Notes under the pieces: model-generated | Told to the model about the DNA's origin: nothing | Databases searched by the model: none | Seen by the model: only the letters and a program-made list of their open reading frames with translations | Shown here: positions 3,861 to 47,700 of the stretch, piece after piece | Layout of the letters: each line of letters opens with the position of its first letter | Position numbering within the stretch: the stretch's first letter is position 1 | DNA from: Petrosia ficiformis | Lineage: Eukaryota; Porifera; Demospongiae; Haplosclerida; Petrosiidae | DNA length: 64,000 bases | Direction: 5' to 3' | NCBI GenBank assembly: GCA_947044365.1 | Contig: OX345636.1 | Coordinates: 41,940,537 to 42,004,536, forward strand | Translations under genes and position numbers: made by a program

Positions 3861-3989
3861 ATAAAGTCAGCCATGATTACTGAATGCTGGACACCTCAAA
3901 GCAGTCATAGGGATACTTTTTTCTATATATATCTTGTTTCGAATTTGACTTTGATTTGGAGTTTCCATTTTGTTTATTAGAGAGTGTGA

Positions 3990-8895: not shown

Positions 8896-9088
8896 TTGAC
8901 CTAAATAATGACTACGGGGGAATTTTAAAGAGGTGTCCCCCCGTTAATGGGGGTTGGAAGGGGGCACAGCCCCCTCAAAGCCCACGCAAATTGTGGTTTC
9001 AGTGACGTTGCCCATGTGCTCTGGTGGGTACCTGAGGCATTTAAATTGCTGAAATCATGGGTGTAGCTGGTGCCAACATGCAGAGAGG

Positions 9089-9368: not shown

Positions 9369-9411
9369 TAATAATAATATATCACATGATATGTATATTA
9401 ATTATCATACC

Positions 9412-11533
9412 TAATTCAATGATCACTAATATATCAGATCCAGTGATTGGTTGAGCTGTCTTCTTAGATCGACTATAATCACTGTAACCTCCAGTCACTA
9501 TAATCCAAAATCTTTCTTTTGATATATAGTATGTTGACATGGAGTGGGCAAATCTTTTAGTGACTGATCAGGAAGATTTACCTGAAGAGATGAATAAATT
9601 AATATATAAACTATATGTTATAAATGAGGAACACATCATCATAATATTATTAGTACAAGAAAGAGTATATTTCAGTTAATAAAATATAATTATTAGAAAT
9701 GTAATGCTAACACTTTTAACTCATATACCGGTATGTGATATACCAGTATTTTCAATATTAGTATTAATTTTGAGGATGACAAATCTGATACCAATATAAA
9801 TTGATATATAGACAACATTGTATTACATGTGTCATGTGATGTAAATTATGTACCTGATACCAGATAAAACTAGAGAGATTCATTATCCAGCAATCGTTTA
9901 GTGTTTAAAGATCTTTATCCAATCCTCCCGACACAATCAAATGAGATATCGTGTGTTGATTTGATGTTATAGTATTGATGATAGTACTAGCATGACTGCT
10001 CCTCGCCTTAGGCCATTTCAATGTAGTAATGGATGATTTGACTACTTTCTTAAAATCCTATAGTATTAGTAATACAACATGGGTTTACTATTAATATCAA
10101 TATAATTTTATAAAGATGAGAATAAAACAGTCACTAATTATGATAATTAATAAGGCGTGAGGTTTACAAGTGGATTATTATGAGTGATTATTATTATAAA
10201 AGAACATGTACTCTTTAGTGTAATAACATGATTAACAATCATGTGATTACATCACACAATTAAAATATTTGTGGTTGTTTATCAAATCACAAATATTGAA
10301 GAAATGTATAATTCTATATGATAGACATGATAATAATTACAACTTAGGAATATGTAACTACAGGTATATAAAATTAATGATAGTGTGTTCATTGTAATGA
10401 ACAAAAATGAATGAAGATTCAAGTGTCTTATTATGATAATAAAATGAAACCAGAGGATTAGAGCTGTAGACAATACAACTGAAAATAATACAAGAGATCA
10501 AGAGTGATAAAAATAATAGACTAGACAAGAAAAGATAACAAATACAACTATGTAGAAATGTGGAATCTGTTATTGTATTCTGAAAGAATGATAACAGAAA
10601 TAACGGTATCGAGTATCATCAATAGTACGCCCTCCAAACATTACACTTCTATTACCAGGAAGTGTATGAATACTGAAGTCAGCACATGGTGATGGACGAT
10701 TTCCTTTTATGATAGGTACTTTCCATTGACCTGAAGAAAATATATGATATCATTATGATGCAATACATAATGTGAGTCATGTAATACCTGGTGATGAATT
10801 GACACACATAGTGTGTATTTCATTTGTGAAGCAATGATTTGGGATGCTAGGGTGTGAAATATATTGGAACCAGTGTGAGTAGTGATTGGTGTAGGTCCAA
10901 CCCCTCCAATAACTAGCAAATTATCTTCTCCATTCATGTTGAATGATATCATTCCACAGTCACGTTTTCTTATCAGGAGACCTGTTAATAATTTCTCTCC
11001 ATTCATTAGTAAGAGTGTTGAGTTCAAATAAATCATTATGAAAACAGTCATTAGGTATACAGCTTCCACCAAAATACAATAAAGAGTCTCTTATGTTAGT
11101 ACAAGCATAGTTAATCACTCCTGCAGGTGGAGTAGCTGTAGTAGATCTCCTCTCTCACTTCAATGTAGGTAAATGAAATATATCAACAGATGATGTGAAC
11201 TTTCTTTTCTCGTCATTATAATGTACCATAGGAAGGCCATTCTGATGTCCTCCCCAGCAATAAAATCTTTCACTATTGACTGCAGTGGAGTGTCCAGTTC
11301 TCCATTTCATCTCATATTGACCTGATAATAAACAATGAATGCATTATTATATTAACTTGACAAGTAATATATAAATATAGTACTATTGCAATATTATTAG
11401 TACACAAACCAGTACTTGTAATTGTATTTCAAGTTTAAGAGATTATGAGTAACTTATTTATCTGATGTGTCAAGTTGTTTCCATGTAACAAGAAATATAA
11501 TGATATTATAATAATTCACTCACCAGTAGCCAT
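9412..11533 (-). pseudogene. Kelch-repeat protein gene, disrupted
   Basis: On the minus strand a short first exon (MAT, 11533-11524) with a GTGAGT donor leads to an exon starting at 11321. Its translation has Kelch-type features: EMKWRTGHSTAV, FYCWGGHQNG, SLLYFGGSC and NDLFELNTLTNEWRE, followed by LLVIGGVGP (10920s), SVMFGGRTIDD (10630s) and WIIVTGGYSDY (9500s). Kelch motifs form beta-propeller blades with GG doublets and spaced Tyr/Trp, as seen here. The frame is broken by a TGA at 11155-11157, a frameshift near 10970 and another near 10880, so it is most likely a pseudogene or an unexpressed copy. The exons are ordered 11533, 11321-10985, about 10985-10785, 10736-10600 and about 9590-9412. 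Confidence 0.7.
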
Positions 11534-19753: not shown

Positions 19754-22700
19754 GATCTAAGGGCTCAAGTAACAAGAATTGCACCTCAAACAACATGGCT
19801 GTGAGTACATATGTACATGTACATGTATGTTTATTTAATATTAGCTAGATTTAATATATATATTTATTTATTTATTTATGTTTAATGAAAGAGTATGTAG
19901 CTAGCTACAGATATCAAGACTGCATGAGCATAGGAGCACGATTGAGATTGTACCTTAACAACAACATTAAACTAGACACTTCCACATAACAACCTACATA
20001 AATATAGCTAGCTAGAGTAAAAGCTAAACTATACTTATCTTTTTTCTGGGCCGTCTCTACTTGGAGAGTACTACATACTCTTGGATATTATGAATACTTA
20101 ATATCATTTATAGAAAACTATCCAAGTCTCACTAGCCACTACCTATATAAACACCCTAAATAGTTCTGTATATTTCGTGTTGCTTGAAATTAATAGAATG
20201 ATGTGTGAGTCATGTAGCTATTTTATGACATCATTCTATTTTTCAGTTACTAGAGCTGTGTAATCAGGTGATTTCATTGGCTAATTTCTCACATGATTCC
20301 TTTGCAGTTTGCATAAGAGTTTCAAGCAACATGAAATGGATAGTAAATATTTACTTGTATATTGACCACACCTCTTATGTGGTTTCACCCTTTTGATGCC
20401 CCAATAATTCTGGCTGCTGAGGCACAATACTGAATAACTAATATATTTATCTAAATTACTTACTTATTCAATTATTGTATCCCTCCTTTCTGTGCTACAA
20501 TACAAATAGTTAAGTTAAATAGAAATGCTGTGGCTAGCCTAGCTACTAGGGCTGGTAGTATTGAATCATCACCTGGATTGTTGACTGTGGCTCACGTTCA
20601 TTCAGTTCAGTTATATAAAAATCCACCCATCCTCACCATCAATCCAGCCCCATGTTTATACTTCCCTTATAATTCAAACAGTGTGTGATTGTCATTGTGG
20701 GTTTCTTTTGTGAACAATGCATTAACTTATTCCGGTAGATAATTATATTTATTTTTAACTGGCAATTTACAATTCAATGCTAGCTACTGGTCCCAGCTGG
20801 TTAGCCAATGGCTTAATTGTCAATACCATTATTACTTGCAAGTATTATTTTATTTCATTCTTCCTCTATATGTCATATTTACTCACTATTTTATTCCACT
20901 CCATTCTATTTGCAAACTGGATCAATACAGCAAGTAAGTTAATATTCACTATAATTATACTATTATTAAATTTCAAGTATTATTTTATTCCATTCCTTCT
21001 TTTCATGCTTGAATATATCAAACTGGATTGATAATATAGCCTGTAAGTTATTATTCATTATAATATACAAAAGTATTATTCCCTTCCATCAAACTGGATT
21101 ATTACTTAATACTACACTTATTAATTTATTTGACTCCTTCGAACACTGGATTAATAATATAGAATGTAAGTTATTACCAAACACAATATTTGCAAGCATT
21201 AATTTATTCCACTCCTTTCCTACTAAAAATATCAAATGGGATTAATATTATAGCGCGTAAGTTATTACTCTATTCCTCATAACTACATAAATCTATTCCT
21301 CTTCATGCTGCTGATTGAAAATAATAAATAAAGGAAGTAAGTTATGGTGTTTAGGGTTTACTTACAAATATTGTCATACTTTATTCCATATTTTTGTACA
21401 TGGATATTATGCTAAAACACTATAGTCTGTAAGTTATTATCACTCAATACTTACAATTATTATTATTTATTTTATTTCTTATCTGCATACAAACAGAAGA
21501 GCAGTGTAAGTTATTACTCAATATCATATTTACTTACAAGCATTCTTTTCTTCCACTCTTCTTCAATTCTTCATGTCAAACTGGATTAATAATATAGCAG
21601 CTTGTAAGTGACCACTTATATTCACTTACCAAATATTCTTTTACTCCACTCTTTCTCTCCATGCTTGTATATATAAAAATGGATTACTAAAACAGTCTGT
21701 AAGTTGTTACTGAAGACAATATTTACTTGCAAATATTATTTTATTCCACTCTTCTCCATGCTTGAATATCAAACTGGATTAATAATATTAGCAAGTAAGT
21801 TATCACTGATAATCACTTACTAGTATTGTTTGATTCCACTCTGGTCCTATTCTCCATGCTTCAATATATCAAACTGGATTGATGTTATAGTCTGTAAGTT
21901 ATTACTCAATACAATATTTACTTACAAGTATTATTAATTTTGTTCCACTTCTTTACATGCTTGAATATGAAACTACATATAGCTTGTAAGTTATTGCTCA
22001 TAATCACCTACGAGTATTATTTATTTCATTCCTTTTTTCATTGTCTGAATAATATATCAAACTGGCTTATAATAGTCTGTAAGTTAATATTCAATACATT
22101 ATTTACTCAAGTATTATTTTATTCCATGCATTCCTCCTCTCCATGTTTTGAACATGTCAAACCTGATCATTGTTGTAGGAAGTAAGTTGCAACATTTATT
22201 TACTTACGTTTTATTCCGCTCTTCTCCATGCTTGAATATGTCAATAATCTAGATAGTAAGTTATCATTCAATACAATGTAAATTTACTTACTATTCCTCG
22301 CCACCACTGAATATGTCAAACTGGATTAATAATGTAGTCTGTAAGTTATGACTCATTTTTTTAACTTACAAGACTTGTGTTATTTATTCCATTCCTCCCC
22401 TCCATGGTTGAATATGAAACTGGAATAATATAGCTTGTAAGTTATTGCTCATAATCACTTACAAGCATTATTTATTCCATTCCTTTTCTCCATGCTTGAA
22501 TATATAAAACTGGCTAATAATAGTCTGTAAGTAATATTCAATACAATATTTACTCATGAGTATTATTTTATTTCATTCCTTCCATCCATGTTTTGAATGT
22601 GGGTTAATATTTTAGAACGTAAGTTACTATATACTTAATACAACACTTACTATTATTGTTTTATTCCACTCCTCTCTATACTTGAATATGTCAATAATCT

Positions 22701-25700
22701 ACTAACCTAAATTTACTTACTATTCCTCTCCATCATTGAATATGAACTGAATAGTTTGTAAGTTGTCATTCATAATCACTTACAAGTATTATTTTAATTC
22801 ACTCTCCTCTCCATACTTGAATATATCAAACTGGATTATTTAGATGGTAAGTTATTAGTTGTATTTGCTTACCAGTATCATTCCTTTTGTTTCCTTTCAT
22901 GCATATACTTGATTAATTATAGCCTGTAAGTTATGACTCATTTTGCTTACAAGTACTAGTATTCTTTATCCCACTCTTCCTTTCTATGTTTGTATATTTC
23001 AAACTGGATTAATAATAATAGCCTGTAAGTTATTATATTTATTTACATCTGCAAATATTATTTTATTCCACTCTCCTCTCCATACTTGAATATATCAAAC
23101 TGAGTTATTTAGAATGTAAGTTATTAGTCGTATTTGCTTACCAGTATCATTTCTTTTTTTCCTTTCATGCATATACTTGATTAATAATTATAGTCTGTAA
23201 GTTATGACTCATTTTGCTTACAAGTACTAGTATTGTTTATCCCACTCTTCCTTTCTATGTTTGTATATTTCAAACTGGATTAATAATAATAGCCTGTGAG
23301 TTATTATATTTATTTACATCTGCAAATATTATTTTGATTCCATTCCTCTCCTAACTTGAAAATATGTGCAACTGGATTAATTAGCGTGTAAGTTAATTAT
23401 TACTAAGAACAATATTTACTCATAAGTATATATTATATATTACTCCTCTCCGTGCTTGAACTGAATTAATATAGCGTGTAAGTTATTGCTCACTACAATA
23501 TTTACTTATTACTGTATTTATTTCACTCTTTTCCATCCTGGAATATAAAACGGAATTAATATAGCCTGTAAGTTATTACTTAACACTTTATTAATTACAA
23601 GTATTAATTAATTCTTCTCTCTATGCTTGAATGTGTCAAACTGGATAAATAAAATAGTCTGTAAGTTATCACTTGATACAATATTACAAGTATTAATTCA
23701 ATTATTCCTCCTCCTTTTTCTGCTTGAATATATCAAACTGACGGTTAATAAAATAGTCTGTAAGTTATTACTCAATGTAATATTTACTGAAAACTATTAT
23801 TTTTATTCTATGCACTCCTCTTCATGCTTGAATATGTCAAACTGGTATAATTATAGGATGTAAGTTATTACTCAATATGATGTTTATTCACAAGTATTAT
23901 TTTATTCCATTCATCCTCTTCTGCTTGAATATGTCAAACTGGACTATAGCCCGTAAGTTGCAGTATACAATACTTACTTACATGCATGTAATAAATTGTT
24001 TTACTCTGACCTCCTTTGTGCTTGATTATATCTAAATTCACAATATAGGTAGTAAATCACTACTCAAAGCATACATGTTTTATTTTATTCCCTCGATAGA
24101 TAATGTGCAAAAACACAGTCTATAAAACTATTATTTTATTCAACTCCCTATCTCCATGCTTGAATATATTATTTACAAGCATTATTCTTTCTTCTTGATA
24201 ATAACAGCATGTGTAAATTATTGCTATTACAACAAATATTATTTTATTCCACTCTCCATGTTTGTATGTGTCAAACTGGAATAATAATAGTAGAAGAAAG
24301 TGCTATGTTTTATTACTTCTCTCGATTCTCAACTAGACACACCATATCTTATTATAGTTGGTAGTTAACTAGTTGGCTGTCTCAATTCCTAAGTTTATAG
24401 AAATCAATAAATAAAATGTTAACAGTCATCTTTCATATTAATTATTCAGTTCTTTTCCAACAGGTGCAAGACAAATTCTCTTATGATGGTGGGATCTTAA
24501 AAGTGTGCATTTTATAATAAACATTTTTCTTATATTTCCTATAATCAGATGTAGAAAAAGCAATTGCTGCAGAAGTAGATGTTGCTTATGCTCGAATCAT
24601 GTTGCTGGGTGCAGCTGGAGTTGGGAAATCCAGTTTTGTTCGTGGACTGAAAAATCAACCGTTTATTCAAGAGGGTAACAGTACACTGGTTGCTGATGTA
24701 AGACCAGTCAGTTATAGTTGGGCAACAGGATGCTGGGAAGACATTGGTGAACAAGATGAACTCGATGAAATTGCCAAGCTTCTTGCCTTAGTGCATCATG
24801 ATGTACAGAGCACTCAACAACTAGTTAGCAGTGTCCAGTCGGTTAGAACATTATACAGAGAAACTACTTCATCACAGCTTTCAGTATTTACAGAGCAAGG
24901 GAAAGAAGAAAACACGACAAAAATCAATTCTTACCTTCAAAAAGCCATCACACGTGCAAAGCTGTTTACACCAAATGATATTCGGAAGTTAAAACCCAGT
25001 CCCTTTTTACATGTTTGGGATTGTGGAGGTCAGCCAATATTCCTAGAAGTACTGCCTGCATTTCTCACTCCACGCACTGAGTTCCTTCTCCTCTTTGATG
25101 CTTCTAAAGATTTTAAGGAGAGGTGGAAGTCCGTTCAATTTCAAAATGGTGAAAAGATTCCAGGAGAAGAAGTCAATATGACCATCTCTGAGCTCCTGGA
25201 TAAATGGATGGCCACAATTCATTCTCATCTTTCAAGTAAAACAGAGAAAGGTGATCTCCTAGATTACCCTCGTATTTTGGGCATTGGTACTCATGGTGAT
25301 GGTCTAAATAAGAGGGAAAAGCAGAGTGTTATTGGCCAGTTTAATACACTCTGCAAGGGAAAAGCATTTTCAGAGCTTATCGATAATATCCTCATCATTG
25401 ACAATACTACTGCTGGTAGAGGAAAGGAAGGTGAAGATCCTGGTTTTGAAAGAATACGTGAAAGTATTTTTCAATTTGCAGAAAAGCTGGTTGTGAAGAC
25501 CCCAGTTAGTTGGGTTCTCTTTCGCAAAATAATACAAATGTTTACGAAGGAATCCAAGAATGTTATCACTTTCAGTGAAGCAAAAGTCATTGGGGTTGCA
25601 TGTAAGATCAAAGCAGAAGATGTACACAAAGTTCTTATGTTCTATCATGATCTGGGAGTGATCTTATACTACAGTCACATCAGAAATCTCAAGAATAAGG

Positions 25701-28484
25701 TCATTCTAAGTCCCAGGTGGTTTGTTGAATCTCTTGGGAAAGTGTTAACACTCCAAGGAAGAGAGACATACCAAACCCGAGAGATGTGGCGTATACTACG
25801 TGAGAATGGCATCCTGATACAACCACTCTATGTTGCTGTATGGAAGGAGTGTGAAGATATAGATCCCGAAGGCATGATGGAACTACTCGTTTCTTTTCAC
25901 CTGGCTGCTCTGGTTAAGACTGAAATGTACTATGATCTAAATGCTCCACAGTATTTTGTTCCCTCTGTATTGCCATTATTCACAGGAGATCAAGCTTCTC
26001 CTATTAATGCTATCCTGAGAGCAACACCTTTACACATCACATTTAGCACAAGGTTTGTTCCACCAGGATACTTCACACGATTTGTTACTACCATGGCTAG
26101 CTTCAAGGCTTGTCAGCTACATTTCGAAAATGGTATATATCGTAATCTCGTTGCATTTAAATTTGGAGATGGTAAAAAATATGATGATATCACCTTCACA
26201 GAGCTACCTGGTGCTGTTCAAGTTGACATTATTCGTAATTTCCCTGATAGCCCAGAGTATACATCCTTTAACAAAACATGCCAAGATCTTTTCATTCTGT
26301 TAGAGGAAAGTTGCAAGGAAGTAGACGAATGCTTCCACCAAAGCTCAACCTCCAATAGTATATACAGAAAATTCCAGTTTCTGTGTAAATTAGTTGAATG
26401 CAGTTCTACTGCTAATATTCACTACCTGAAAGACACTGATGAAATTCAGACTCAAAGTGATCCTTGTAGCTGTGAAGGAAAGAAAAAACAAGGCATGTTT
26501 CGTAAACTTACAGAAGAGGAAGCCTATTGGTTCCCAGCAGTACCACGACAAAATGTCAAGGTAGTGAAATACACAATATGTGTTGGAGTTTTTCCTACTC
26601 TTTCATTCGTTATTATACAGGTTTTCTTTTTTACAGCCAAAACGTATCTCAGAACAAGAAATGTTGCAGATATCACGAGAAATTGGTGGAAGTGGTGAGG
26701 ATTTAGCAGCTCAAATGGGAAGACTAACAAAATGGCATGAGATAAAGCTAGATTCCACAGCTGCTAACAAAATCCTTAACCTTCTGTTTGACTGGGACAA
26801 AGGAGGGGGTGAACGTGAAGAACTTGTTCAACATCTTAAAAAACTCCAGTTTATCCAATTAGCTGAAAAGTGAGTATTTGATTATATGCTAACAAATGAT
26901 ACCATCAATCCAGCATTTCATTCAATCCACAATACCATCAATGACTATAACTTATTGTCTAGAAATTCAATACTAAATAATAAATTCAATGACAAGACTA
27001 CATTTTATAACATTTAGGCTGGCTGGTAATGAAATAGACAGTTCTAATACCGAGAGACGTTCTAATGATAAAATAAAGAGTGTAAGTCATGAGGATTGTT
27101 ATCTTTAAACAGTATACTATATTTTAAATATGCTTTGTTACTCAATAGCTTCTGAGGAAAATGCATGTATCTTCAGATCCTGTAAGTTATCAATCTCATA
27201 TTATAATACCTATCTCCATGGTAATCAGCCACATACTTCTCTTATCCTTGGTCAGAGTAATCTAGAATCCTCTCCTTTGGCAGTTGATCTTCCTCCTCAG
27301 TCACCTGTTTTGAAATCTTCCAATCCTGTAAGTTTATTTTCATACTTTGTATTATGTATATCAGTTATTAATCCTCCATCCCATTGGTAAATAGCCACAT
27401 ACCTCTCTTGGTCAGACTAATGTAGAATCATCTCCTTTGGCAGTTGATCTTCCTCTTCAGTCACCTGTTTCAAAATCTTCCAATCTTGTAAGTTCATTTT
27501 CATTCTTGATTCAATTTAAATCTCTTATTGGAACTCCTGTCTCCATTGGTAATCAGCCACTTATTCATATTGGTCAGTTGAATCTAGAATCCTATCCTTT
27601 GGCAGTTGATCTTCCACCTAAACCACCAATGTCGAGATCTTCCAATTTTGTATGTTCATTTTCATACTTTGTATTATGTATATCAGTTATTAATCCCCTG
27701 TTCCATTGGTAAACGGCCATATATCTCTCTTGGTCAGACTAATCTAGAATCCTCTCCTTTGGCAGTTGATCTTCCTCTTCAGTCACCTGTTTCAAAATCT
27801 TCCAATCTTGTAAGTTCGTTTTCATACTTTGTATGTAGATTCAATTTCAATCTCTTATTGGAACTCCCGTCTCCATTGGTAATCAGCCACATACTCCTCT
27901 TGGTCAGTATAATCTAGAATCCTCTCCTTTGGCAGTTGATCCTCAACTCCAATCACCTGTTTCGAGATCTTCCAATTCTGTATGTTCATTTTCATATTTT
28001 GTATAATGTACATTCAATTTCATATTATAACCTTGTCTTTATTTGCAATCAGCCACATTCCTTGCCTAGTCAGTCTACTCATCCTTTGCAAGCTCAGCCA
28101 CAAATTTCACAATCTTCACTTCGTAAGACAGATATAAGACGATGTTGTCGTTTTGTTACTGACGACATGACATTATTAGCTGGTCTAATTGGTGTTACAG
28201 ATTTGGAACTTGCTAACCTACAACAAAGTTATAGTAGAAAGGATGTTTGTGCCCTCCGTTTAATTGAGAAATGGATGCAAAACAATCCAGAGACAAATAA
28301 AGATGACCTGTATCAGCTTCTAGTAGATGCTGATCAATGTGATGCAGCAAGAAGCTTGGTTAGTAGTTCCTATATAGACTGTCATAATTGTTACTGGGTA
28401 TGGAAAAACCAGGCTTGTGGCTCACACCAAATGTTTAGATATAAATGCTCTTTATTTTGTAATTCTGTACATAAAGCAAACTAA
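19754..28484 (+). CDS. ROCO (Roc-COR GTPase) protein with two Death-like domains, copy 1 (whole gene)
   Basis: Proposed exons are: 19754-19800 (ATG 19795, Met-Ala), a microexon array at 20931-24060, 24464-24488, 24549-26560, 26637-26869, 27018-27081, 27149-27181, 27229-27327, 27395-27487, 27557-27649, 27717-27809 (acceptor mutated), 27887-27979 and 28053-28484. All junctions follow GT-AG and keep frame. The 25-nt exon ends in phase 1 and completes GAT with the next exon; 26637-26869 ends in phase 2; other junctions are phase 0. The Roc-COR exon has an in-frame stop (24542-24544) directly upstream and no ATG before the P-loop, so upstream coding exons are required. ROCO proteins are dimeric G proteins. 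The double Death-like tail suggests apoptosis or innate-immune signalling by analogy with DAPK-type ROCO proteins. Expected length is about 1,100 residues, depending on cassette use. Confidence 0.75.
19801..20930 (+). other. First intron of ROCO copy 1, with foldback
   Basis: It starts with a GTGAGT donor after ATG GCT. Copies 2 and 3 begin the same intron with GTAAGTACATATG, but here it is ~1 kb longer before the array starts. An inverted-repeat insertion at about 20167-20345 (TTGCTTGAAA against TTTCAAGCAA, ATAGAATGATGT against ACATCATTCTAT) explains part of the extra length. Confidence 0.6.
20931..24300 (+). repeat. Intron-shaped tandem array with single-codon islands, copy 1
   Basis: Units of about 80-115 bp each run donor GTAAGT, a T/C-rich stretch ending near CTTGAATATGTCAAACTGG, ATTAATAATATAG acceptor, three nucleotides, then the next GTAAGT. 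I count 32 three-nucleotide islands with a strong GTRAGT donor. The first are CAA 20931-20933, CCT 21040-21042, AAT 21163-21165, CGC 21254-21256, GAA 21334-21336 and TCT 21426-21428. By codon: TCT 9, CCT 5, CTT 3, CAA, GAA, AAT and CGT 2 each, and CGC, ATA, AAC, TTT, ATG, GAT and CCC once. One island near 21497 is 9 nt (AAG AGC AGT) if the AACAG acceptor is used. The island ending 21603 can be CTT or CAGCTT. Every length is a multiple of three with no stop codon. From about 24055 the donors decay (GTAAAT, ATAAAA, GTGTAA). Whether the islands are spliced in is unproven. Confidence 0.8.
24464..24488 (+). CDS. ROCO copy 1, conserved 25-nt exon before the GTPase exon
   Basis: Encodes VQDKFSYD plus one base. 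Matching exons are 37487-37511 and 46971-46995. It begins in phase 0 after CCAACAG and ends before a GTGGGA donor, which is weak; the other copies have GTGAGA and GTTAGC. It is the landing site of the microexon array and fixes the frame of the Roc domain. Confidence 0.75.
24549..26560 (+). CDS. ROCO copy 1, Roc-COR exon
   Basis: One 2,012-nt exon encodes the GTPase core. The P-loop is GAAGVGKSS (about 17 residues into the exon), the G3 region is HVWDCGGQP (DxxGQ-like) and the G4-like motif is GIGTHGDG in place of the usual NKxD, as in ROCO proteins that use THxD. The COR part follows from about residue 290 of the exon, with FRKIIQMF, KIKAEDVHKVLMFYHDLGVI, VILSPRWFVESLGKV and QYFVPSVLP. It ends at NVK before a GTAGTG donor. 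Frame read-through into the intron gives a false C-terminus. The sequence is closely similar to copies 2 and 3. The P-loop second residue is Ala here but Pro in the other two. Confidence 0.9.
26637..26869 (+). CDS. ROCO copy 1, first Death-like domain exon
   Basis: After acceptor TTTTTACAG the exon reads PKRISEQEMLQISREIGGSG, LAAQMGRLTKWHEI, then ILNLLFDWDKGGGEREELVQ and LKKLQFIQLAEK. The pattern (short helix, xIGxxWxxLAxxLG-like start, LLxxW then G and a final Leu-rich helix) is that of the Death-domain fold. It ends in phase 2 at a GTGAGT donor. Called by pattern only; a profile search would confirm. Confidence 0.7.
27018..27081 (+). CDS. ROCO copy 1, linker exon
   Basis: A 64-nt exon reading KLAGNEIDSSNTERRSNDKI then KS, closing the phase-2 junction and ending in phase 0 before GTAAGTC. 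It is near-identical in copy 2 (40036-40099) and diverged in copy 3 (50119-50182). Polar, probably disordered. Confidence 0.75.
27149..27979 (+). CDS. ROCO copy 1, tandem Pro/Ser-rich cassette exons
   Basis: A 33-nt exon (27149-27181) is followed by five related phase-0 exons: 27229-27327 (99 nt), 27395-27487, 27557-27649, 27717-27809 and 27887-27979 (93 nt each). Each encodes a variant of a PHTxLGQxNLESSPLAVD motif followed by LPPQSPVSRSSN. The introns between them are ~65-80 bp and also near-copies, so exon plus intron was duplicated as a unit. The fourth cassette has AG changed to GG at its acceptor, but an internal in-frame CAG (GGTCAG) could replace it. Any cassette can be skipped without a frameshift. 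Confidence 0.7.
28053..28484 (+). CDS. ROCO copy 1, terminal exon with second Death-like domain
   Basis: Starts after TTGCAATCAG with a cassette-like PHSLPSQSTHP, then DIRRCCRFVTDD, LLAGLIGVTDLELANLQQSY, ALRLIEKWMQNNP and DDLYQLLVDADQCDAARSLV. This matches a Death-fold pattern (LIEKW, then a Leu-rich last helix). Read straight through, the frame runs to TAA at 28482-28484 with a 30-residue unconserved tail. A GTTAGT at about 28359, homologous to a likely donor in copy 3, might instead splice to a later exon. Confidence 0.65.
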   Translation, partial: PHSLPSQSTHPLQAQPQISQSSLRKTDIRRCCRFVTDDMTLLAGLIGVTDLELANLQQSYSRKDVCALRLIEKWMQNNPETNKDDLYQLLVDADQCDAARSLVSSSYIDCHNCYWVWKNQACGSHQMFRYKCSLFCNSVHKAN

Positions 28485-29335: not shown

Positions 29336-29671
29336 ACTGGTAATACTAACATGTATTCCATTATCTGATATAATAATACACTGGTAATACTAACATGTAT
29401 TCCATTATCTGATATAATAATACACTGGTAATACTAACATGTATTCCATTATCTGATATAATAATACACTGGTAATACTAACATGTATTCCATTATCTGA
29501 TATAATAATACACTGGTAATACTAACATGTATTCCATTATCTGATATAATAATACACTGGTAATACTAACATGTATTCCATTATCTGATATAATAATACA
29601 CTGGTAATACTAACATGTATTCCATTATCTGATATAATAATACACTGGTAATACTAACATGTATTCCATTA
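29336..29671. repeat. 44-bp minisatellite, ~7.6 units
   Basis: The unit is ACTGGTAATACTAACATGTA followed by TTCCATTATCTGATATAATA and ATAC. Units are virtually identical, which implies recent expansion or homogenisation. The same satellite lies at the same relative place downstream of copy 2 (41529-41993, ~10.5 units) but was not seen after copy 3. Confidence 0.95.
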
Positions 29672-30850
29672 TACAGAGATAGTACTACAGTAGTGGACAA
29701 TATAAAATCACTATACACATACAGTACTACTATGTTAGTGTAGTTGTGTATTATAATATAAATACACCACAGCAGCAATACTACTTAGTAACATACTTCA
29801 CACAATATACTGTTGAACTACTGTTGAACTACTGTTGAACTACTTGTTAACTACTGTAATAAAGGTGTAGTTACTTTTGGTAATTTATAATTGTGTACTA
29901 CTTTTACATTATCAGCTAATGATAAAAGCTTTAATCTTTAAGAATAGTTAATTGTAAATTATCGATCATGATCACAAATTGGGTTAAGTGTTTTGCTTCT
30001 GAAATTTCAGTCTATTGGATAGTGTGGAGTGATATTTACACTTCAATCGCTTCAATTACTGTTACAATTCAATGAATGAACTCTTGTGTCTCAAATTCTT
30101 TTATAAATTTCCGATTCTTATAGTTAATTTGATGGGACATAAGTTAAGTAACTTTGCATCATGTATGAATGTTACCATTACATATAGCAGCTATATAGTT
30201 TTGATTCTTGATTTTTCAGTTCAGTGTTCTGTCACTTCAATTAATACATATATAATTATATATATAGTCTATGCATGTAGCACTGTTTGATAACGGCACC
30301 TGAAATGTTTTAATTTTTCATCATTGTCGTAAAACCGTTTGGTTCTTCAGTTGGTTACCTCAATTTTATATCAACCCATAGCAGCATCCATTCACACATT
30401 GTTGAATTCAAGTTATAAAGAGCAGCAACCTTTAGTGTTAGAATTATGTTTATTCAAACTTAACAATGACTAAAAATAAATTGACAGACTGTTGGGGCAT
30501 TAAATTCTGAATTGATATAATAACAGTTTATACTAGTCATTATACTCTCCCACTATTAATTTGCACAAAATTCAATGATAACATTCCATTAGGACTCCTG
30601 ACTTACAAAACATCGAAAGATATGATAACATGTAATATTATATAAAATTTATATGATTATTATGAATTTCATACCCATCATATCTAAAGGTAAATTTTGG
30701 AAATTTGGAAATTATAAATTAAATTTCAACTTTGCTTTTTGCAAATTTGGCACTGTATGTACATATGTGTATTATATAATAATTATTATATTTTACTTAT
30801 ATATATATATATTATATTATATGTATAGGTTATATCCTGGTACGAGTTCT

Positions 30851-33990: not shown

Positions 33991-36900
33991 GATCGTACTG
34001 TTACTATCATAACAACATGGATGTTGTAAGTACATATGTGCACATAAAACGTTTACTCACAAGTATCATTTTATTCCACTCCTTTTCAAATTGGATTAAT
34101 AATATAGCATGTAAGTTATTAATCATTACAATATTCACTCACAAGTGTTATTTTATTCCACTTTTTCTCTTCATGCTTGAATATCTGGATTAATAATATA
34201 GTCTGTAAGTTAGTACTCATTACAATATTTACTCACAAGTATTGTTTTATTCCACTCTTTCTCTTCATGCGTGAATATGTCAAACTGGATTAATAATATA
34301 GCGTGTAAGTTATTACTCATTACTCACAACTGTTATCTTATTCCACTCTTTCTCTTCATGCTTGAATTTGTCAAACTGGATTAATAATATAGTCTGTAAG
34401 TTATTACTCATTACAATATTTACTCACAAATTCCACTCTTTCTCCTCATGCTTGAATATGTCAAACTGGATTAATAATATAGTCTGTAAGTTATTACTCA
34501 TTAAATATTTACTCAAAAGTGTTATTTTATTCCACACTTTCTCTCCATGCTTGAATATATCAAACTGGAATAATAATATAGCTTGTAAGTTATTACTCAT
34601 TACAATATTTACTCACAAGTGTTATTTTATTCCACTCTTTCTCTTCATGCTTGAATATGTCAAACTGAATTAATACTATAGTCTGTAAGTTATTACTCAT
34701 TACAATATTTACTCACAAGTATTATTTTATTCCACACTTTCTCTCCATGCTTGAATATTGAATTGATATTGTAGGAAGTAAGTTATTACCTATTACGGTA
34801 TTTACTCACAAGTGTTATTTTATTCTACTGTTTCTCTTCATGCTTGAATATGTCAAACTGGATTAATAATATAAATAGCTTGTAAGTTATTACTCATTAC
34901 AACATTTACTCACAAATTCCATTCTTTCTCTTCATGCTTGAATATATCAAAATGGATTAACAATATAGTGTGTAAGTTATGCTCACTACAATATTTACTC
35001 ACAAGTATTATTTTATTCCACTTTTTTTCTCCATGCTTGAACAATATAGCCTGTAAGTTATCACTCATTGCAATATTTACTCACAAATTCCACTCTTTCT
35101 TTTCATGCTTGAATATGTCAAAATGGATAACAATATAATAGCCTGTAAGTTATTACTCATTTCAATATTTACTCACAAATTACACTCTTTCACTATGCTT
35201 GAATATGTCAAAATGGATAACAATATAGCCTGTAAGTTATTACTCAACACAATATTACTCACAAATTCTACTCTTTCTCTTTATGCTTGTATATGTCAAA
35301 ATGGATTAATAATATAGTCTGTAAGTTATTACTCACTGCAAACTCGCTAGTATTATTTTATTCCACTCTTTCTCTCCATGCTCAAATATGTCAAAATGGA
35401 TTAACAATATAGCCTGTAAGTTATTACTCATTACAATATTTACTCACAAGTATTATTTTATTCCACTCCACCTCTTCATTCTTGAATATGTCAAACTGGA
35501 TTGATAATATAGCCTGTAAGTTATACTCACTACAATTATTTTATACTCACAAGCACTATTTTATTCCACTCCTCCTCTTCATGTTTGAATATGTCAAACT
35601 GGATTGATAATATAGCCTGTAAGTTATACTCACTACAATATTTTATACTCACAAGTACTATTTTATTCCACTCCTCCTCTTCATGCTTGAATATGTCAAA
35701 CTGGATTGATAATATAGCGTGTAAGTTATTACTCACTACAATATTTTATACTCACAAGTACTATTTTATTGCATTCCTCCTCTTCATGCTTGAATATGTC
35801 AAAACTGGATTGATAATATAGCCTGTAAGTTATACTCACTAAAATATTTTATACTCACAAGTACTATTTTATTGCACTCCTCCTCTTCATGCTTGAATAT
35901 GTCAAACTGGATTGATAATATAGCCTGTAAGTTATACTCACTAAAATATTTTATACTCACAAGTACTATTTTATTGCACTCCTCCTCTTCATGCTTGAAT
36001 ATGTCAAACTGGACTGATAATATAGCGTGTAAGTTATTACTCTATAAAATACTTACTCACAAGTACTATTTCATTCCACTCCTTTTTGAAACTGGATTAA
36101 TAATATAGCGTGTAAGTTATTACTCAATACAGTATTTACTCAAGTATTATTTTGTTCCACTCCTCCTCTCCATGCTGTAATATGTCAAACTGGATTGATA
36201 ATATAGTCTGTAAGTATTACAATATTAATTTTACTCACAAGTATTATTTTATTCCACACTCTCTTCTTGTTTAAATATGTCAAACTGGATTAATGTAGTC
36301 TGTAAGTTATTCAATACAATATTTACATGCAAGTATTATTTTAATCCACTCCTTTTCTGGTTGAATACGAAAAACTGGATTAATGATATAGTCTGTAAGT
36401 TATTACTCAGTAATTTGTTTACAAGTATTATTATTATATTCCACTCCATCTCTCTATGCCTGAATATGTCAAACTGTTAGTTTGTAAGTTTTGAATACAA
36501 TTTTGATATACAAATATTATTTTATTCCACTTCACTTCTTTATGTTTAAATACATCAAATATGTCAAATATAGTCTGTAAGTTAATTGAATACAAGTTTG
36601 ATATACAAGTATTATTTTATTCCACTTGTTCTCTTCATGTTTTAATATGTCAAACTGAATTAATAATATAGGATGTAAGTTATTGCTCATTACAATATCT
36701 ATTGATAAATATTATTTTATTTCACTTTCTGTTCACACTTGAATATGTCAAACTGGATTGATAATATAGCTTGTAAGTTATTACTCAGTACAATATTTAC
36801 TCAAGTGTTATTTTATTCCACTTATTCTTTTCTTGTTCGAATGTGTCAAACTGGATTAATAATATAGGTCGTAAGTTATTACTCAATACAATATTTACTT

Positions 36901-39900
36901 ACAAGTATTCTTTCATTCCACTTTTTCTCTTCATGTTTGAATATGTCAAACTGGATTAATAATATAGGACGTAAGTTATTCCTATATTTCACTCACAAAT
37001 ATTATTTTATTCCACTCTTTCTCCTCATGCTTTAATATGTCAAACTGGATTAATAATACAGCTTGTAAGTTATTACTCATTACAATATTTACTCACAAGT
37101 GTTATTCTATTATATTTTTCTGTTCATGTTTGAATATGCAAACTGGATTAATATTTGATGTAGTATGTAAGTTATTGCTCAAACCAATATTTCCAAGTAA
37201 TATTTAATTCCACTTTTTTTGAATAATATTATGTCAAATTGGATTAATAATATAGCCTGTAAGTTACTACTAAATACAATATGAAGTTACAAGTATTATT
37301 TTATTCCTCTCTTTCTCTTTGTGCTTGAATATGTCAAACTGGATTAATAATATAGCTTGTAAGTTATTACTCAATAATAAGATTACTCTTCCATATGTTG
37401 TATATGTCAAAGTAATTTATAGCCCATAGTTCATTCTTGGCTTTCTCTATTTTTGAATTTGTAACTGACATTTGTTTTTCAATTAGGTACAAGATAAACT
37501 TTCTTATGATGGTGAGATCTTTTCAATTATAAAAGTCAGTTGTGAGGTTTTCATATGACACAGATGTAAAGGAAGCGATAGCAAAAGAAGTTGATGTTAC
37601 TTATGCTCGAATTATGTTGCTGGGCCCAGCTGGAGTTGGGAAATCAAGTCTTGTTCGTGGTCTGAAAAAGCAACCGTTTATTCACGAGGGTAACAGTACG
37701 CAGGTTGCTGATGTAAGACCAATCAGTTATAATTGGGCAACAGGAGATTGGAAAGATGTTTGTGAACAAGATGAACTTGATGAAGTTGCAAAACTTCTTG
37801 CTACAGTGTATCACGACAGACATGATGTACAGAGTACTCATCAATTAGTTAGCAGTGTCAAGTCCATTACAACATTATATGAAGGAACTACTTCATCGCA
37901 GTTTCCAGTATCTACAGAGCAAGTAAATGAAGTAAAGACCTCGAAAGTCGATTCTTACCTCGAAAATGCCATCACACGAGCAAACCAGCTTACACCAGAT
38001 GATATTCGAAAGTTAAAACCCAATCCCTTTTTACATGTTTGGGATTGTGGAGGTCAGCCAATATTCCTAGAAGTACTGCCAGCATTTCTCACTCCTCGCA
38101 CTGAGTTCCTTCTCCTCTATGATGCCTCCATAGATTTCAAAGAGAGGTGGAAATCAGTCCAGTTTCAACAAGGAAGGGAGATTCCAGGAGAAGAAGCTAA
38201 CATGACTATCTCTGAGCTTCTGGATAAATGGATGGCCACAATTCATTCTCATCTTTCAAGTAAAACAGAAAAAGGAGATCTCCTAGATTACCCTCGTATT
38301 TTGGGCATTGGTACTCACGGTGATGGTCTAAATGAGGGGGAAAAGCAGAGTGTTATTGACCAGTTTGATGCACTCAGTTCAGAGAAAGCTTATTTAGAGC
38401 TGTTGGATGATATCATCATCATCGACAATACTACTGCTGGTAGGGGCAACAATGGTGAAGATCCTGGTTTCGGAAGAGTACGTGAAAGTATTCTTCAGTT
38501 TGCAAAAAAGCTGGTTGTTAAGACCCCAGTTAGTTGGGTTCTGTTCCGCAAAATAATACACATGTTTGCAAAGGAATCCAAGAATGTTATCACTTTCAGT
38601 GAGGCAAAAGCCATTGGGGTCGCTTGTAAGATCAAAGCAGAAGATATACACAAAGTTCTCATGTTCTACCATGATCTGGGAGTGATCTTATACTACAGTC
38701 ACATCAGAAATCTCCAGGATAAGGTTATTCTAAGTCCCAGGTGGTTTGTTGAATCTCTTGGGAAAGTGTTAACACTCCAGGGAAGAGAGACATACCAAAC
38801 TAAAGAGATGTGGCGTATACTACGCGAGAAAGGCATCCTCATACAACCACTCTATGTTGCTGTATGGAGAGAATGTGAAGATATAGATCCGGAAGGCATG
38901 ATGGAATTACTGGTTTGTTTTCATCTAGCTGCCCTGGTTAAGACTGAAGTATATTATGATCTAAATGCTCCACAGTATTTTGTTCCCTCCGTATTGCCAT
39001 TATTCACAGGAGATCAAGTTTCTCCTATCAATGCTATCCTGAGAGCAACACCTTTACACATCACATTCAGCACAAAGTTTGTTCCACCAGGATACTTCAC
39101 ACGATTTGTTACTACCATGGCTAGCTTCAAGGCTTGTCAGCTACACTTCAAAAATGGTATATATCGTAATCTTGTCTCATTTAAATTTGGAGATGGTAAA
39201 AAATATGATGATATCACCTTCACAGAGCTACCTGGTGCTATTCAAGTTGACATTATTCGTAATTTCCCTGATAGCCCAGAGTATACATCATTTAACACAA
39301 TGTGTGAAGATCTTTTCATTCTGTTAGAGGAAAGTTGCAAGGAAGTAGACGAATGCTTCCACCAAAGCTCACCTTTCAGTAATATACACAGAAAATTCCG
39401 GTTTCTGTGCAAATCAGTTGAATGCAGTTCAGCTGCCGATGTCCACTACCTGAAAGACACTGATGAACATCAGACTCAGAGTGATCCTTGTAGCTGTGAA
39501 AAAAATGATGCATTTCGTAGGCTTACAGAAGAGGAAGCCTATTGGTTCCCAGCAGTACCACAACAAAATATCAAGGTAGTGAAGTACACAACTATGTGTA
39601 TTTCAGTTTTCCTACTCTTTCATTTATTGTTTTATATGTTTGCTATTCTTACAGGCGAAACGTATCTCACAAAAAGAAATGTTGCAGATATCACAAGAAA
39701 TTGGTGGAAATGGTCAACGTTTAGCGGCCCAATTGGAGAGATTAACATCATGGCAACAGATATTGCATGATCCTACAGCTGTTGACAAAGTTGTTAGCCT
39801 TCTGTTTGAGTGGGACAAAGGAGGGGGTGAACGTGATGATCTTGTTCAACATCTTAAAAATCTTCATTTTACACAATTGGCTGAAAAGTGAGTATTTGAT

Positions 39901-41006
39901 TATTTGCCAACAAATGATACCATCAATTCAGCATTTCATTCAATCCACTACACCATCAATGACTATAACTTATTGTTTAGAAATTCAATACTAAATTATA
40001 AATTTAATGACAAGACTACATTTTATAACATTTAGGCTGGCTGGTAATGAAATAGACAGTTCTAATACCGAGATACGTTCTAATAATAAAATAAAGAGTG
40101 TAAGTCATGAGGATTGTTGTCCTTAAGTAGTATTATATTTTACATATGCTTTGTTACTCAATAGCTTCTGAGGAAAAGGCATGTATCTTCCAATCCTGTA
40201 AGTTCATTTTAATACTTTGTATAATGTATATCAGTCATCAATCCCATCTTCATTGGTAATCAGCCACACACCCCTCCTCTTGGTTATAATCTAGAATCCT
40301 CTCCTTTGGCAGTTAATCTTCCACCTCAATCACCTGTTTCGATATCTTCAAATCCTGTAAGTTCATTTTCATACTTTATATCTTTCATCAATCCCATCTC
40401 CATTGGTAATCAGCCACATACTCCTCTTGGTCAGTATAATCTAGAATCCTCTCCTTTGGCAGTTGATCTTCCCCCTCAATCACCTGTTTCGAGATCTTCC
40501 AATTCTGTAAGTTCATTTTCATGTTTTGTATTATGTATTATGTTAATCAATTTCAATCTCCTGTCTTTATTGGCAATCAGCCACATCACTCTCCCAGTCA
40601 GTCTACTCATCCTTTAAAAGCTCGGCCACTGATTTCACAATCTCCACCTAGTGAAGCAGATATAAGACGATGCTGTCGTTTTGTTACTGACGACATCAAA
40701 TTATTAGCTGGTCTTATTGGTGTGACAGACCCTGAACTTGCCGACCTACAACAAAGTTATAGTATAAAGAACATATGTGCCCTTCGTTTAATTGAGAAAT
40801 GGATGCAAAAAAATCCAAAGAATAGTAAAGATGACCTGTATCAGCTTCTAGTAGATGCTGATCAATGTGATGCAGCAAGAAGTTTGGTTAGTAGTTCCTA
40901 TATAGACTATCATAATATGTATTTCAGCATAATGTACAATTTGTGTATCCAATATGCAATATCAAATTGGTTTCGATTTCATGAAATTATTAATTGTCAC
41001 AACTGA
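33991..41006 (+). CDS. ROCO (Roc-COR GTPase) protein with two Death-like domains, copy 2 (whole gene)
   Basis: Proposed exons are: 33991-34025 (ATG 34017, then GAT GTT), 35 three-nt islands between 34108 and about 37360, 37487-37511, 37564-39575, 39655-39887, 40036-40099, 40165-40197, 40264-40356, 40414-40506 and 40581-41006. Junction phases equal those of copy 1. An upstream acceptor (ACATTACAG) before GATCGTACTG implies at least one 5' untranslated exon. If all islands were used the product would be about 1,030 residues. The order is a short Ser/Pro/Leu/Arg-rich N-terminus, Roc, COR, Death-like, Pro/Ser linker, Death-like. No LRRs, ankyrins or kinase domain are visible, unlike LRRK- or DAPK-type ROCOs. 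Confidence 0.78.
34026..37390 (+). repeat. Intron-shaped tandem array with 35 single-codon islands, copy 2
   Basis: This is the cleanest array. Units of 90-100 bp each present GTAAGTTATTACTCATTAC, a spacer TTTACTCACAAG, a T/C stretch TTTTATTCCACTCTTTCTC, CTTGAATATGTCAAACTGG and ATTAATAATATAG, then 3 nt, then GTAAGT. Early islands are CAT 34108-34110 and TCT 34202-34204. By codon: TCT 9, CCT 9, CTT 5, CGT 4, and CAT, GAA, TGT, TTT, GAT, GTC, GAC and TAT once each. All 35 have an AG directly before and GTAAGT directly after, and none is a stop. The last repeat (near 37420) has lost its donor (CCC followed by ATAGTT). The islands vary while both splice-site words stay fixed. Confidence 0.88.
37487..37511 (+). 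CDS. ROCO copy 2, conserved 25-nt exon
   Basis: Encodes VQDKLSYD plus one base, between acceptor TTTTTCAATTAG and a GTGAGA donor. Its joint with 37564 restores GAT. Confidence 0.75.
37564..39575 (+). CDS. ROCO copy 2, Roc-COR exon
   Basis: 2,012 nt, the same length as in copy 1. P-loop GPAGVGKSS, G3 HVWDCGGQP, G4-like GIGTHGDG, COR landmarks FRKIIHMFAKES, KIKAEDIHKVLMFYHDLG and VILSPRWFVESLGKV. A small insertion relative to the other copies follows ATVYHDR, and a compensating deletion is near the CSCEKNDAF segment. It ends at QNIK before a GTAGTG donor. Reading through the intron would add a false tail ending near 39770. No start codon precedes the P-loop in this exon; the GTG at 37542 lies in the upstream intron. 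Confidence 0.9.
39655..39887 (+). CDS. ROCO copy 2, first Death-like domain exon
   Basis: 233 nt after ATTCTTACAG: AKRISQKEMLQISQEIGGNG, LAAQLERLTSWQQIL, LLFEWDKGGGERDDLVQHL and FTQLAEK. Same fold pattern and same phase-2 end as copies 1 and 3. Confidence 0.7.
40036..40099 (+). CDS. ROCO copy 2, linker exon
   Basis: 64-nt exon nearly identical to 27018-27081 of copy 1. Ends in phase 0 at GTAAGTC. Confidence 0.75.
40165..40506 (+). CDS. ROCO copy 2, Pro/Ser-rich cassette exons (three)
   Basis: 40165-40197 (33 nt), 40264-40356 and 40414-40506 (93 nt each), all phase 0 with GTAAGT donors. The two 93-nt cassettes encode variants of NLESSPLAV and LPPQSPVS. Copy 2 has two long cassettes against five in copy 1, so cassette number changes quickly. 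Confidence 0.75.
40581..41006 (+). CDS. ROCO copy 2, terminal exon with second Death-like domain
   Basis: After TTGGCAATCAG: PHHSPSQSTHP, then DIRRCCRFVTDDIKLLAGLI, PELADLQQSY, ALRLIEKWMQKNP and DDLYQLLVDADQCDAARSLV. The frame stops at TGA 41004-41006 after a tail that differs from copy 1. As in copy 1, a GTTAGT after AAGTTTG may be a donor. Confidence 0.65.
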   Translation, partial: PHHSPSQSTHPLKARPLISQSPPSEADIRRCCRFVTDDIKLLAGLIGVTDPELADLQQSYSIKNICALRLIEKWMQKNPKNSKDDLYQLLVDADQCDAARSLVSSSYIDYHNMYFSIMYNLCIQYAISNWFRFHEIINCHN

Positions 41007-41528: not shown

Positions 41529-41993
41529 CACTGATAATACTAACATGTATTCCGATATAATAATACACTAGTAATACTAACATGTATTCCATTATCTGAT
41601 ATAATAATACACTGGTAATACTAACATGTATTCTATTATCTGATATAATAATACACTGGTAATACTAACATGTATTCCATTATCTGATATAATAATACAC
41701 TGGTAATACTAACATGTATTCCATTATCTGATATAATAATACACTGGTAATACTAACATGTATTCCATTATCTGATATAATAATACACTGGTAATACTAA
41801 CATGTATTCCATTATCTGATATAATAATACACTGGTAATACTAACATGTATTCCATTATCTGATATAATAATACACTGGTAATACTAACATGTATTCCAT
41901 TATCTGATATAATAATACACTGGTAATACTAACATGTATTCCATTATCTGATATAATAATACACTGGTAATACTAACATGTATTCTATTATCT
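41529..41993. repeat. 44-bp minisatellite, ~10.5 units
   Basis: Same unit as 29336-29671, at the same place relative to the gene, but with about three more units and a shortened first unit lacking the middle part of the motif. Confidence 0.95.
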
Positions 41994-44754: not shown

Positions 44755-47700
44755 GATCTTAGCTTGCTAATATCATTACAACATGGCTGTAAGTACATAT
44801 GTACACATCAAATGCACAATATTTACTCATCTGTATTCTTTCTATCCATGCTCGAATACATTAAAATTTTAATTAAAAATATAGTCTGTAAGTTATTAAT
44901 CATTACAATATTTACTCTTTATTTCACTCCTCCTGTCCATGCATGAATATATCAAACTGGATTATAATAATATAGCGAGTAAGTAATTATTCATTACAAT
45001 GTCTACTCACATGTATTTTTCTATTCAATTTTTTCCCTTCATCCTTGAATATCTATCTAACATTGGATAAATAATACAGATTGTAAGTTACTACTCATTA
45101 CAATATTTACTCACAAGTATTATTTCATTCCACTCTTTCTCTTCATGCTTGAATACGCAAAATTTAATAGTTTGTAAGTTATCACTCATTATAAACAAAT
45201 ATTATTCTATTCAATTTTTTCTCTTCATGCTTGAATATATCAAACTGGATTAATAATATAGCGTGTAAGTTATTACTCATTACAATATTCACTTACAAGT
45301 ATTATTTCATTCCACTCTTTCTCTTCATGCTTGAATATGTCAAACTGGATTAATAATATAGCATGTAAGTTATTACTCATTGCAATATTCACTTACAAGT
45401 ATTATTTCATTCCACTCTTTCTCTTCATGCTTGAATATATCAAACTGGATTAACAATATAGCATGTAAGTTATTACTCATTACAATATTTACTCACAAGT
45501 ATTATTTTATTGTATTCTTTCTCTCCATACTTGAATACATCAAAACATAATTAAAAATATAGTCTGTAAGTTATTACTAATTACAATATTTACTCAAAAG
45601 TATTATTTCATTCTATTCTTTCTTTTTATGCTTGAATATATCAAATTGGATTAATACAGGATGTAAGTTATTACTAATTACAACATTTACTCACAAGTAT
45701 TATTTTATTCTACTCTTTCTCTCCATGCTTGAATATGTCAAAATTTAATTAATAATAATTATAGTCTGTAAGTTACTACTCATTACAAGTATTTACTCAC
45801 AAGTATTATTTCATTCCACTCTTTCTCTTCATGCTAAAATTGGATGAATAATACAGATTGTAAGTTACTACTCATTACAACATTTACTCACAAGTATTAT
45901 TTTATTCTACTCTTTCTCTCCATGCTTGAATACGACAAAATTTAATTAATAATATAGCATGTAAGTTATTGCTAATTGCAATATTTTACTCACAAGTATT
46001 ATCTTTCTCTTTGTTCTTGAATGTGTCAAACTGGCTTAATAATATAGACTGTAAGTTATTACTCATTACAGTATTTACTCACAAGTATTATTTTAATTTA
46101 CTCTTTCTCTATGCTTGAATATGTGAAAATAATATAGCGTGTAAGTTATTTACTCATTACAATATTTACTCACAAGTATTATTTCATTCCACTTTTTCTC
46201 TTCATTGAATACACCAAATTTAATTAATAATAGCCTGTAAGTTATTACTAATAACAATATTTACTCACAAGTATTATTTTATTCTACACTTTCTCTTTAT
46301 GCTCGAATATATCAAACTGGATTAATAATACAGATTGTAAGTTATTACTTATTACAACATTTACCCATAAGTATTATTTTATTCTATCCACCATGTTCGA
46401 ATACGTCAACCTTTAACTAAAAATATAGTCTGTAAGTTATTAATTATTACAGTATTTACCCTTTTATTTCCCTTCTCCTGTCCATGCTTGAATATATCAA
46501 ATTGGATTATATAATATAGCGTGTAAGTAATTATATCACAATGTCTGCTCACAAGTACTATTTCATTCCACTCTTTCTCTTCATGCTTGATATATCAAAC
46601 TGGCTTATTAATATAGCGTGTAAGTTATTACTCATTACAATATTCACTCACAAGTATTATTTCATTCTACTCTTTCTCTTCATGCTTGAATATATCAAAC
46701 TGGATTAACAATATAGCATGTAAGTTATTACTCATTACAATATCTATTTTACTCACAAGTATTACTTTATTGTACTCTTTTTCTCCATGCTTGAATATAT
46801 CAAACTGGATTAGAATGTAAGTTATTACTAGTTATTATTTAACCTCATTGTTTTACAAGTGTATTATTATATTACTTTTTCCATTGGATTTGTCCAAATC
46901 TAGCCTGTGAGTAATTATTGTGTAGTGACTTATTAATTACAATAAAAATATGTTTTCTACTTTCAAATAGTTACAAAAGAGACTTTCTCATGATGGTTAG
47001 CACTCATGTGCTTGGTATTATAAAAGTCGGTTTCATTATGTTTCATACAATCAGATGCAAAGAAAGCAATTGCTGAAGAAGTTGATGTTGCTTATTCTCG
47101 AATCATGTTGCTTGGCCCAGCTGGAGTTGGGAAATCAAGTCTTGTTCGTGGACTGAAGAAGCAACCGTTTATTCAAGAGGGTAATAGTACTCAGGTCGCT
47201 GATGTAAAACCAGTCAGTTATAGTTGGGCAACAGGAGACTGGAAAGATGTCGGTGAAGAAGATGAACTTGATGAAGTTGCAAAGCTTCTTGCCTCAGTGC
47301 ATCATGATGTAGAGAGTACTCAACAACTAGTTAGCAGTGTCCAGTCGGTTAGAACATTATACGGAGAAACTACTTCATCGCGGTTTCCAGTATCTACAGA
47401 GCAAGTGAATAAAGTAAAGACCTCAAAAGTCGATTCTTACCTCGAAAATGCCATCACACGAGCAAACCAGCTTACACCAGATGATATTCGAAAGTTAAAA
47501 CCCAATCCCTTTTTACATGTTTGGGATTGTGGAGGTCAGCCAATATTCCTAGAAGTACTGCCAGCATTTCTCACTCCCCGCACTGAGTTTCTTCTCCTCT
47601 TTGATGCTTCGAAAGATTTTAAGGAGAGGTGGAAGTCCATCCAGTTTCAAAATGGCGAAGAGATTCCTGGAGAAGAAGTTAATATGACTATCTCCGAGCT

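Follow-up and report, generated by a model that had tools for sequence, protein, structure and literature searches.

A block of sponge DNA probably encodes part of a protein one codon at a time. The window, meaning the whole stretch of DNA analysed, comprises 64,000 nucleotides of Petrosia ficiformis (contig OX345636.1, here C1, positions 41,940,537-42,004,536; searched assembly, 191,215,263 bases) and holds three copies of a gene for a Roc-COR (ROCO) protein. In copy 2, the start exon is followed by an array of 35 intron-like units and 35 islands of three nucleotides, every island being flanked by the words of a splice acceptor and a splice donor. We put at roughly 0.8 the probability that these islands are translated as one-codon exons, which would give the Roc-COR protein a variable N-terminal tail of 35 residues.

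The predicted start exon of copy 2 (33991-34025, forward strand, as are all arrays and array-flanking exons of the three copies) is preceded by an ACAG acceptor and followed by GTAAGT at 34026. It would consist of a 5' untranslated region (33991-34016) and the codons ATG GAT GTT (34017-34025; ATGGATGTT), ending in phase 0; at other loci, ATG GCT or ATG ACT stands before the same kind of donor. The array (34026-37358), delimited by word search, donor spacing and translation, runs from a first island CAT (34108-34110) to a last island CTT (37356-37358), with the predicted translation HSRSSLSELCPPPSPPPRPPRRSSSFSDLVDLYPL. Its terminal intron (37359-37486; donor GTAAGT, acceptor AATTAG) resembles the units at its start only, and leads to a 25-nt exon (37487-37511), preceded by AG, that encodes VQDKLSYD plus one nucleotide and passes from phase 0 to phase 1. 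After an intron of 52 nt (37512-37563) comes the Roc-COR exon (37564-39590, 3' end approximate), placed by Pfam matches of the open reading frame 37533-39770 to Roc (PF08477, 33.8 bits) and COR-A (PF16095, 54 bits), both above cut-off. The predicted splice order is thus ATG-GAT-GTT, ordered runs of islands, then GTACAAGATAAAC. Reading on from the array, the first methionine is met only in the P-loop strand of Roc, so an intact domain requires an upstream ATG.

The array had been picked out beforehand in a sequence-only reading, which counted 35 islands between AG and GTAAGT with 12 different codons. A base-level recheck of 34108-37358 found every base as described, and the flanks, a start exon ending and a 25-nt exon beginning in phase 0, were likewise borne out. 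The same reading located the array correctly but extended it to 37390, a position inside the terminal intron. It also took the units to have a constant length of ~95 bp, whereas donor spacing in copy 2 ranges from 81 to 104 nt and only the 3-nt length of the islands is constant.

Arrays of this kind recur in the genome. An exact search for the pattern returned clustered matches, 64 forward and 16 reverse, and a 100-base unit gave 310 matches, those listed all lying in array clusters. Eleven arrays were studied, the three of the window (W1-W3) and eight from further loci that were fetched; they hold 15 to 50 three-nucleotide islands each, 353 in total once an overlap artefact in W3 is removed. 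All 11 lie upstream of a Roc-COR exon, the 610 codons examined are open at every locus, and the Roc-COR amino-acid identity is 71-91% across all 55 pairs; in copies 1 and 2 the assignment to the ROCO family rests on PF08477 and PF16095 matches above their cut-offs. At 10 of the 11 loci the next exon is the 25-nt homologue, entered in phase 0. At the remaining one, L016, the last acceptor opens directly into the Roc exon and the phase is again 0, so that entry into the next exon is in phase 0 at 11 of 11 loci. A bare genome-wide count of triple AG/NNN/GTAAGT runs was rejected as evidence in its own right, with 183 + 48 matches against 704 + 1123 in the reversed control, an excess presumably due to satellites, which repeat any word.

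The length of the islands was assessed from the unit bodies rather than from the splice words. A profile was built from the inner parts of 305 units, with the first and last 9 bases removed, and the joins between adjacent matches that scored 10 bits or more were read at the 11 loci; the seed units had been picked by GTAAGT, and four match pairs that lay too far apart were set aside. Of 329 joins, 324 consist of AG, three nucleotides and GT, with a donor matching GTAAGT at five or more of six positions. The other five are a 9-nt island (TGT GCA ATT) in L015, three joins without splice words and one irregular join in copy 1 (~24156-24241). The exceptional longer islands, 9 nt in L015 and 6 or 9 nt in copy 1, are multiples of three and symmetrical. 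In the diverged array of L016 the profile caught 13 of 28 three-nucleotide islands; all 28 are sense codons, with a spacing of 71-97 and varied donors (GTACGT, GTGAGT, GTAGGT, GTAATT and GTAAGA). A direct listing for this array gives 29 islands, one of them an artefact of overlapping words. Intron length ranges from 70 to 110 nt across the arrays, and 163 of 302 measured introns are not a multiple of three, which rules out unit length as the carrier of the frame. When the 324 join windows are aligned, none of the 96 columns has a higher entropy than the first and second positions of the island (1.85 and 1.89 bits). No indel falls between positions -6 and +4 of that alignment, while intron positions -10 to -7 hold 25 to 106 gaps.

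Additional evidence for translation comes from the codons themselves. There is no stop codon among the 324 body-anchored islands, while 20,000 shuffles of third letters within arrays gave 5.95 stops on average and not one result of zero; under a global shuffle the probability of zero stops is 0.00085. A wider word search gave 354 islands, and its sole TAA (W3, ~44980) shares bases with the donor of a CGA island, so that it is not a junction in its own right; the 353 islands left after removal of this artefact contain no stop. A purine in third position occurs in 0 of 18 islands of the TA box, compared with 28 of 66 in the AA, CA and GA boxes (p=0.0004). The units fall into two families, a main family of 258 mostly T-ending islands and an 81-bp family of 66 mostly A-ending islands (L013 and L014). 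The third base departs from the pyrimidine or purine default of its family in 12 of 207 islands of synonymous boxes but in 32 of 117 islands of split boxes (p=1.3e-7), so that departure is about five times commoner where the choice between T and A is non-synonymous. Accordingly, 20 of the 29 A-ending islands in the main family are GAA, AAA or CAA, for amino acids that have no T-ending codon, and 9 of the 11 T-ending islands in the A-ending family are CAT, TTT, TAT or GAT. The residues predicted from the 324 islands (Ser 66, Pro 63, Arg 46, Ala 3, Val 3, Thr 2 and no Gly; one GGC island in L016 lies outside this set) match the composition expected for a disordered linker. The sequence-only reading had cautioned that sense codons in a single T-ending array prove little; that was right, and arrays with many A-ending islands were needed. 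Its proposal of consecutive single-codon exons is partly supported, by the lack of stops, the code-respecting third base and the variable, indel-free islands, not by a constant unit length as it had argued.

These signatures bear most directly on the proposal that the array is a splice-mimicking minisatellite within one large intron (34026-37486), in which case the mRNA would join 34025 to 37487 and the islands would remain untranslated. Skipping the whole array does leave the frame intact. The units also amplify as blocks: L012 contains a repeated run of eight codons and L013 one of five, these duplications carry codons together with introns, and the closest unit pairs share their codon in 21 of 21 cases (8 in L012, 13 in L013). 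Moreover, the genome contains two genuine minisatellites that include the splice words. One, L047 (C1:47502400-47504400), is an unrelated 91/97-bp minisatellite of the form AG/TGT/GTAAGT, the island being TGT in all 10 copies, and the other, L048, is an unrelated repeat with ACT in 3 of 3 copies; together with a short GTAAG-rich repeat at C1:53.686 Mb, they make up the three clusters outside the family among the matches listed, which extend to C3:734 kb; L047 and L048 are the two that were read. Both true mimics have constant islands, and constant islands are the appearance of a chance mimic. A neutral minisatellite island is expected to drift like the rest of its unit, indels and stops included, which is not the pattern of the 11 arrays. 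The absence of stops, the third base structured by the code, and islands that are the most variable positions yet free of indels therefore favour translation over a minisatellite, which we regard as distinctly unlikely.

A different origin for translated codons would be introner-type insertion, where an old tail exon was invaded at each codon boundary by copies of a single intron. This proposal shares the translated single-codon exons with the reading favoured here and differs from it solely on origin. It draws on L014, where 152 of 186 unit pairs with an intron divergence of at most 1% have different codons, as if the intron had dropped among old codons. In contrast, the most similar unit pairs within L012 and within L013 have copied their codons along with their introns, and the exact 3-nt spacing at more than 300 sites demands a targeting rule. 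Introner-like elements would also place one intron in many unrelated genes, whereas the listed part of the 310 unit matches lies in the array clusters. The Amphimedon relatives that were read also have no such tail to invade. An Amphimedon model, P0120 (MKPKKDYSYDKEVAEKEV), and another relative, P0118 (MAVVYDQDIAKKEV), both begin only shortly, by a few residues, ahead of the same Roc segment. We consider introner-type insertion unlikely. The position of these starts, just ahead of Roc, suggests that the array arose within the first, phase-0 intron, directly after the start codon.

Among close pairs, 66% of first and second codon positions differ at 0.4% intron divergence, and fourfold third positions differ in 0 of 31 cases. 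A general decoupling of codons from introns was nevertheless rejected, since the signal comes almost wholly from L014 (186 of 207 close pairs) and pairs of L012 and L013 show none. Positive selection in general is not claimed; gene conversion of introns combined with codons held by selection would fit equally well. Conservation of the tail sequence was rejected as well. The tails compared were the body-anchored islands, which are incomplete for some loci and most so for L016 (13 of 28), and most of the 55 paralogue pairs align no better than shuffles. Two pairs (L013-W1 and L015-L016) exceed all 200 shuffles and L012-W2 exceeds 196 of 200; given such short, biased sequences, these three are not convincing. 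The pair L011-W2 has 91% Roc-COR amino-acid identity, yet its tails also align no better than shuffles. The tail would be a disordered linker, rich in Pro, Ser and Arg or acidic, that evolves much more quickly than the rest of the Roc-COR protein.

If the islands are exons, a 3-nt exon has no space for exon signals, which places the load of recognition on the intron and would account for the near-perfect GTAAGT. Splicing would then proceed by intron definition, with each ~90-nt intron paired with its own nearest acceptor, recognized through GTAAGT and the intron's own 3' part, and removed stepwise. As a unit is an intron plus three nucleotides, gain, loss or skipping of a unit preserves the frame, leaving arrays free to grow and shrink; the repeated blocks of L012 and L013 would be the trace of such growth. 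Because all units have equal phase, skips stay in frame and some heterogeneity among transcripts is to be expected. A stronger version of this model holds that every tail codon is optional, each mRNA keeping its own ordered, in-frame subset of the ~35 codons. Donors and acceptors of equal strength would permit a choice codon by codon, but we advance this combinatorial reading only tentatively and doubt it more than we credit it.

Another model invokes the same splice words without any codon being kept. The sites could be stepping stones for recursive splicing, or decoys for U1, that assist removal of a long intron or delay splicing. A long series of near-perfect donors would suit such a role, which could also depend on a fixed distance from each acceptor to the next donor. 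Recursive splice sites, however, join AG directly to GT with nothing between them, as a zero-length exon, whereas three nucleotides separate AG from GT in nearly all of the joins examined here. Decoys give no account of the missing stops or of third bases that respect synonymy, and the entire array spans just 3.4 kb. A role of this kind is very unlikely.

Several observations weigh against translation of the islands. Introns 3 nt apart leave hardly any room for two spliceosomes at the same time, making stepwise splicing a necessity and a demanding one for 35 consecutive introns. Used as a protein query, the 160 N-terminal residues matched none of 133 candidates; the array's own open reading frame as a query gave one match, from a 1560-base contig. 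The sixteen relatives that were read, out of 120 listed and 721 found, all start in or just before the Roc segment and have no such tail. No intact ATG exon was found upstream of the array of copy 1, and L015 has AA where other copies have AG in the acceptor before the Roc exon; this gene may be impaired or may use another acceptor. The constant 3-nt length is partly a matter of shared descent of the units, and the aligned join windows were preselected for 3-nt islands. Nor are the islands independent observations. With one count per codon per array, departure from the default falls to 11 of 66 versus 20 of 61 (p=0.040), and the purine test of the TA box to p=0.047; on this most cautious count the third-base tests are supportive of coding islands, not overwhelming.

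The closest kin of the arrays, which were read here in genomic sequence, are the micro-exon genes (MEGs) of schistosomes and isolated 3-nt microexons. MEG exons reportedly measure 6-36 nt. The likeness lies in symmetrical islands of 3n nucleotides, all in the same phase; the run of 35 islands with splice words in copy 2 is a candidate counterpart of a series of very small exons. The coding region of MEGs consists mostly of very small symmetrical exons, whose in-frame alternative splicing generates a pool of similar proteins, and MEGs undergo accelerated evolution (PMC4350168). The present arrays differ in having putative exons of one codon, introns of one repeat family, a location in the tail only, and an unrelated Roc-COR protein. 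At most, the array genes work like a MEG; by Pfam, the host gene is Roc-COR. Among isolated cases, RPS24 is said to contain a 3-nt microexon. Others are Drosophila homothorax micro-Ex8 and the 3-nt exons of Ncam and TnT, which indicate that the spliceosome can include an exon of this size (PMC7392893, PMC8042270). Each of these genes has a single 3-nt exon, compared with 35 in series here. In plants, APC11 and VPS55 have 1-nt microexons with a conserved, strong GTRAGT donor beside the tiny exon (PMC8831610); those microexons are isolated and conserved, while the arrays are repeated. In a potato gene, a duplicated intron-exon boundary is reported to have passed its splice signals to a new intron (PMC4974935). 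That was one event, whereas each of the 11 genes here has dozens of units. The portions of open PMC text covered contained no run of consecutive 3-nt exons.

The other two copies in the window differ in preservation. Copy 1 has a more degraded array of 32 islands (20931-24051; word search and body-anchored joins), with one island of 6 or 9 nt near 21506 and a join without splice words near 22681, and is followed by a 25-nt exon (24464-24488) and a Roc-COR exon starting at 24549. Signs of decay in this region (20800-24460) include an ATGGCT followed by TAA at the expected donor position, and odd last units. Copy 3 has a predicted start ATG GCT (44783-44788) with GTAAGT at 44789, an array of 22 islands found by word search (44789-46906; 20 in the body-anchored set), a 25-nt exon (46971-46995) and a Roc-COR exon starting at 47055. 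At L014, the start exon reads ATG GCT followed by GTAAGA, and 12 nt further on by GTATGT; splicing from the latter site would lengthen the exon by four in-frame codons. At L015, an insert of several hundred bases (3941-4817) with inverted repeats, resembling a mobile element, lies inside an array intron, and the flanking islands remain multiples of three.

Downstream of COR, the same genes have another exon-intron array, of coarser build (27213-28010 and 40227-40522 in the window; 8152-9812 at L015). Its predicted exons are rich in Pro and Ser, are spaced at 93 and ~150-176 bp, and in many cases end directly before GTAAGT. It is followed by a Death-like domain (PF00531, 19.5 bits, below the cut-off of 22.6). 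A nearly perfect 44-bp tandem repeat also lies downstream of copies 1 and 2 (29336-29672, 100% matches; 41554-41993, 98%), the same unit in a different register.

If the islands are translated, these genes would have, to our knowledge, the densest arrangement of introns and exons described, with an intron for every codon over stretches of dozens of codons, and this in no fewer than 11 genes. Exons of 3 nt are hard to map with short reads, so gene models may miss such tails. The arrays would make it possible to test the minimum exon size and spacing that an animal can handle in stepwise splicing, and whether modules of an intron plus a codon, being frame-neutral, are a fast source of new disordered protein sequence. 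Should the combinatorial reading also hold, the 11 genes would yield a practically unlimited set of N-terminal tails, a generator of diversity at the level of splicing, and that diversity would sit on a Roc-COR, death-domain-like signalling protein.

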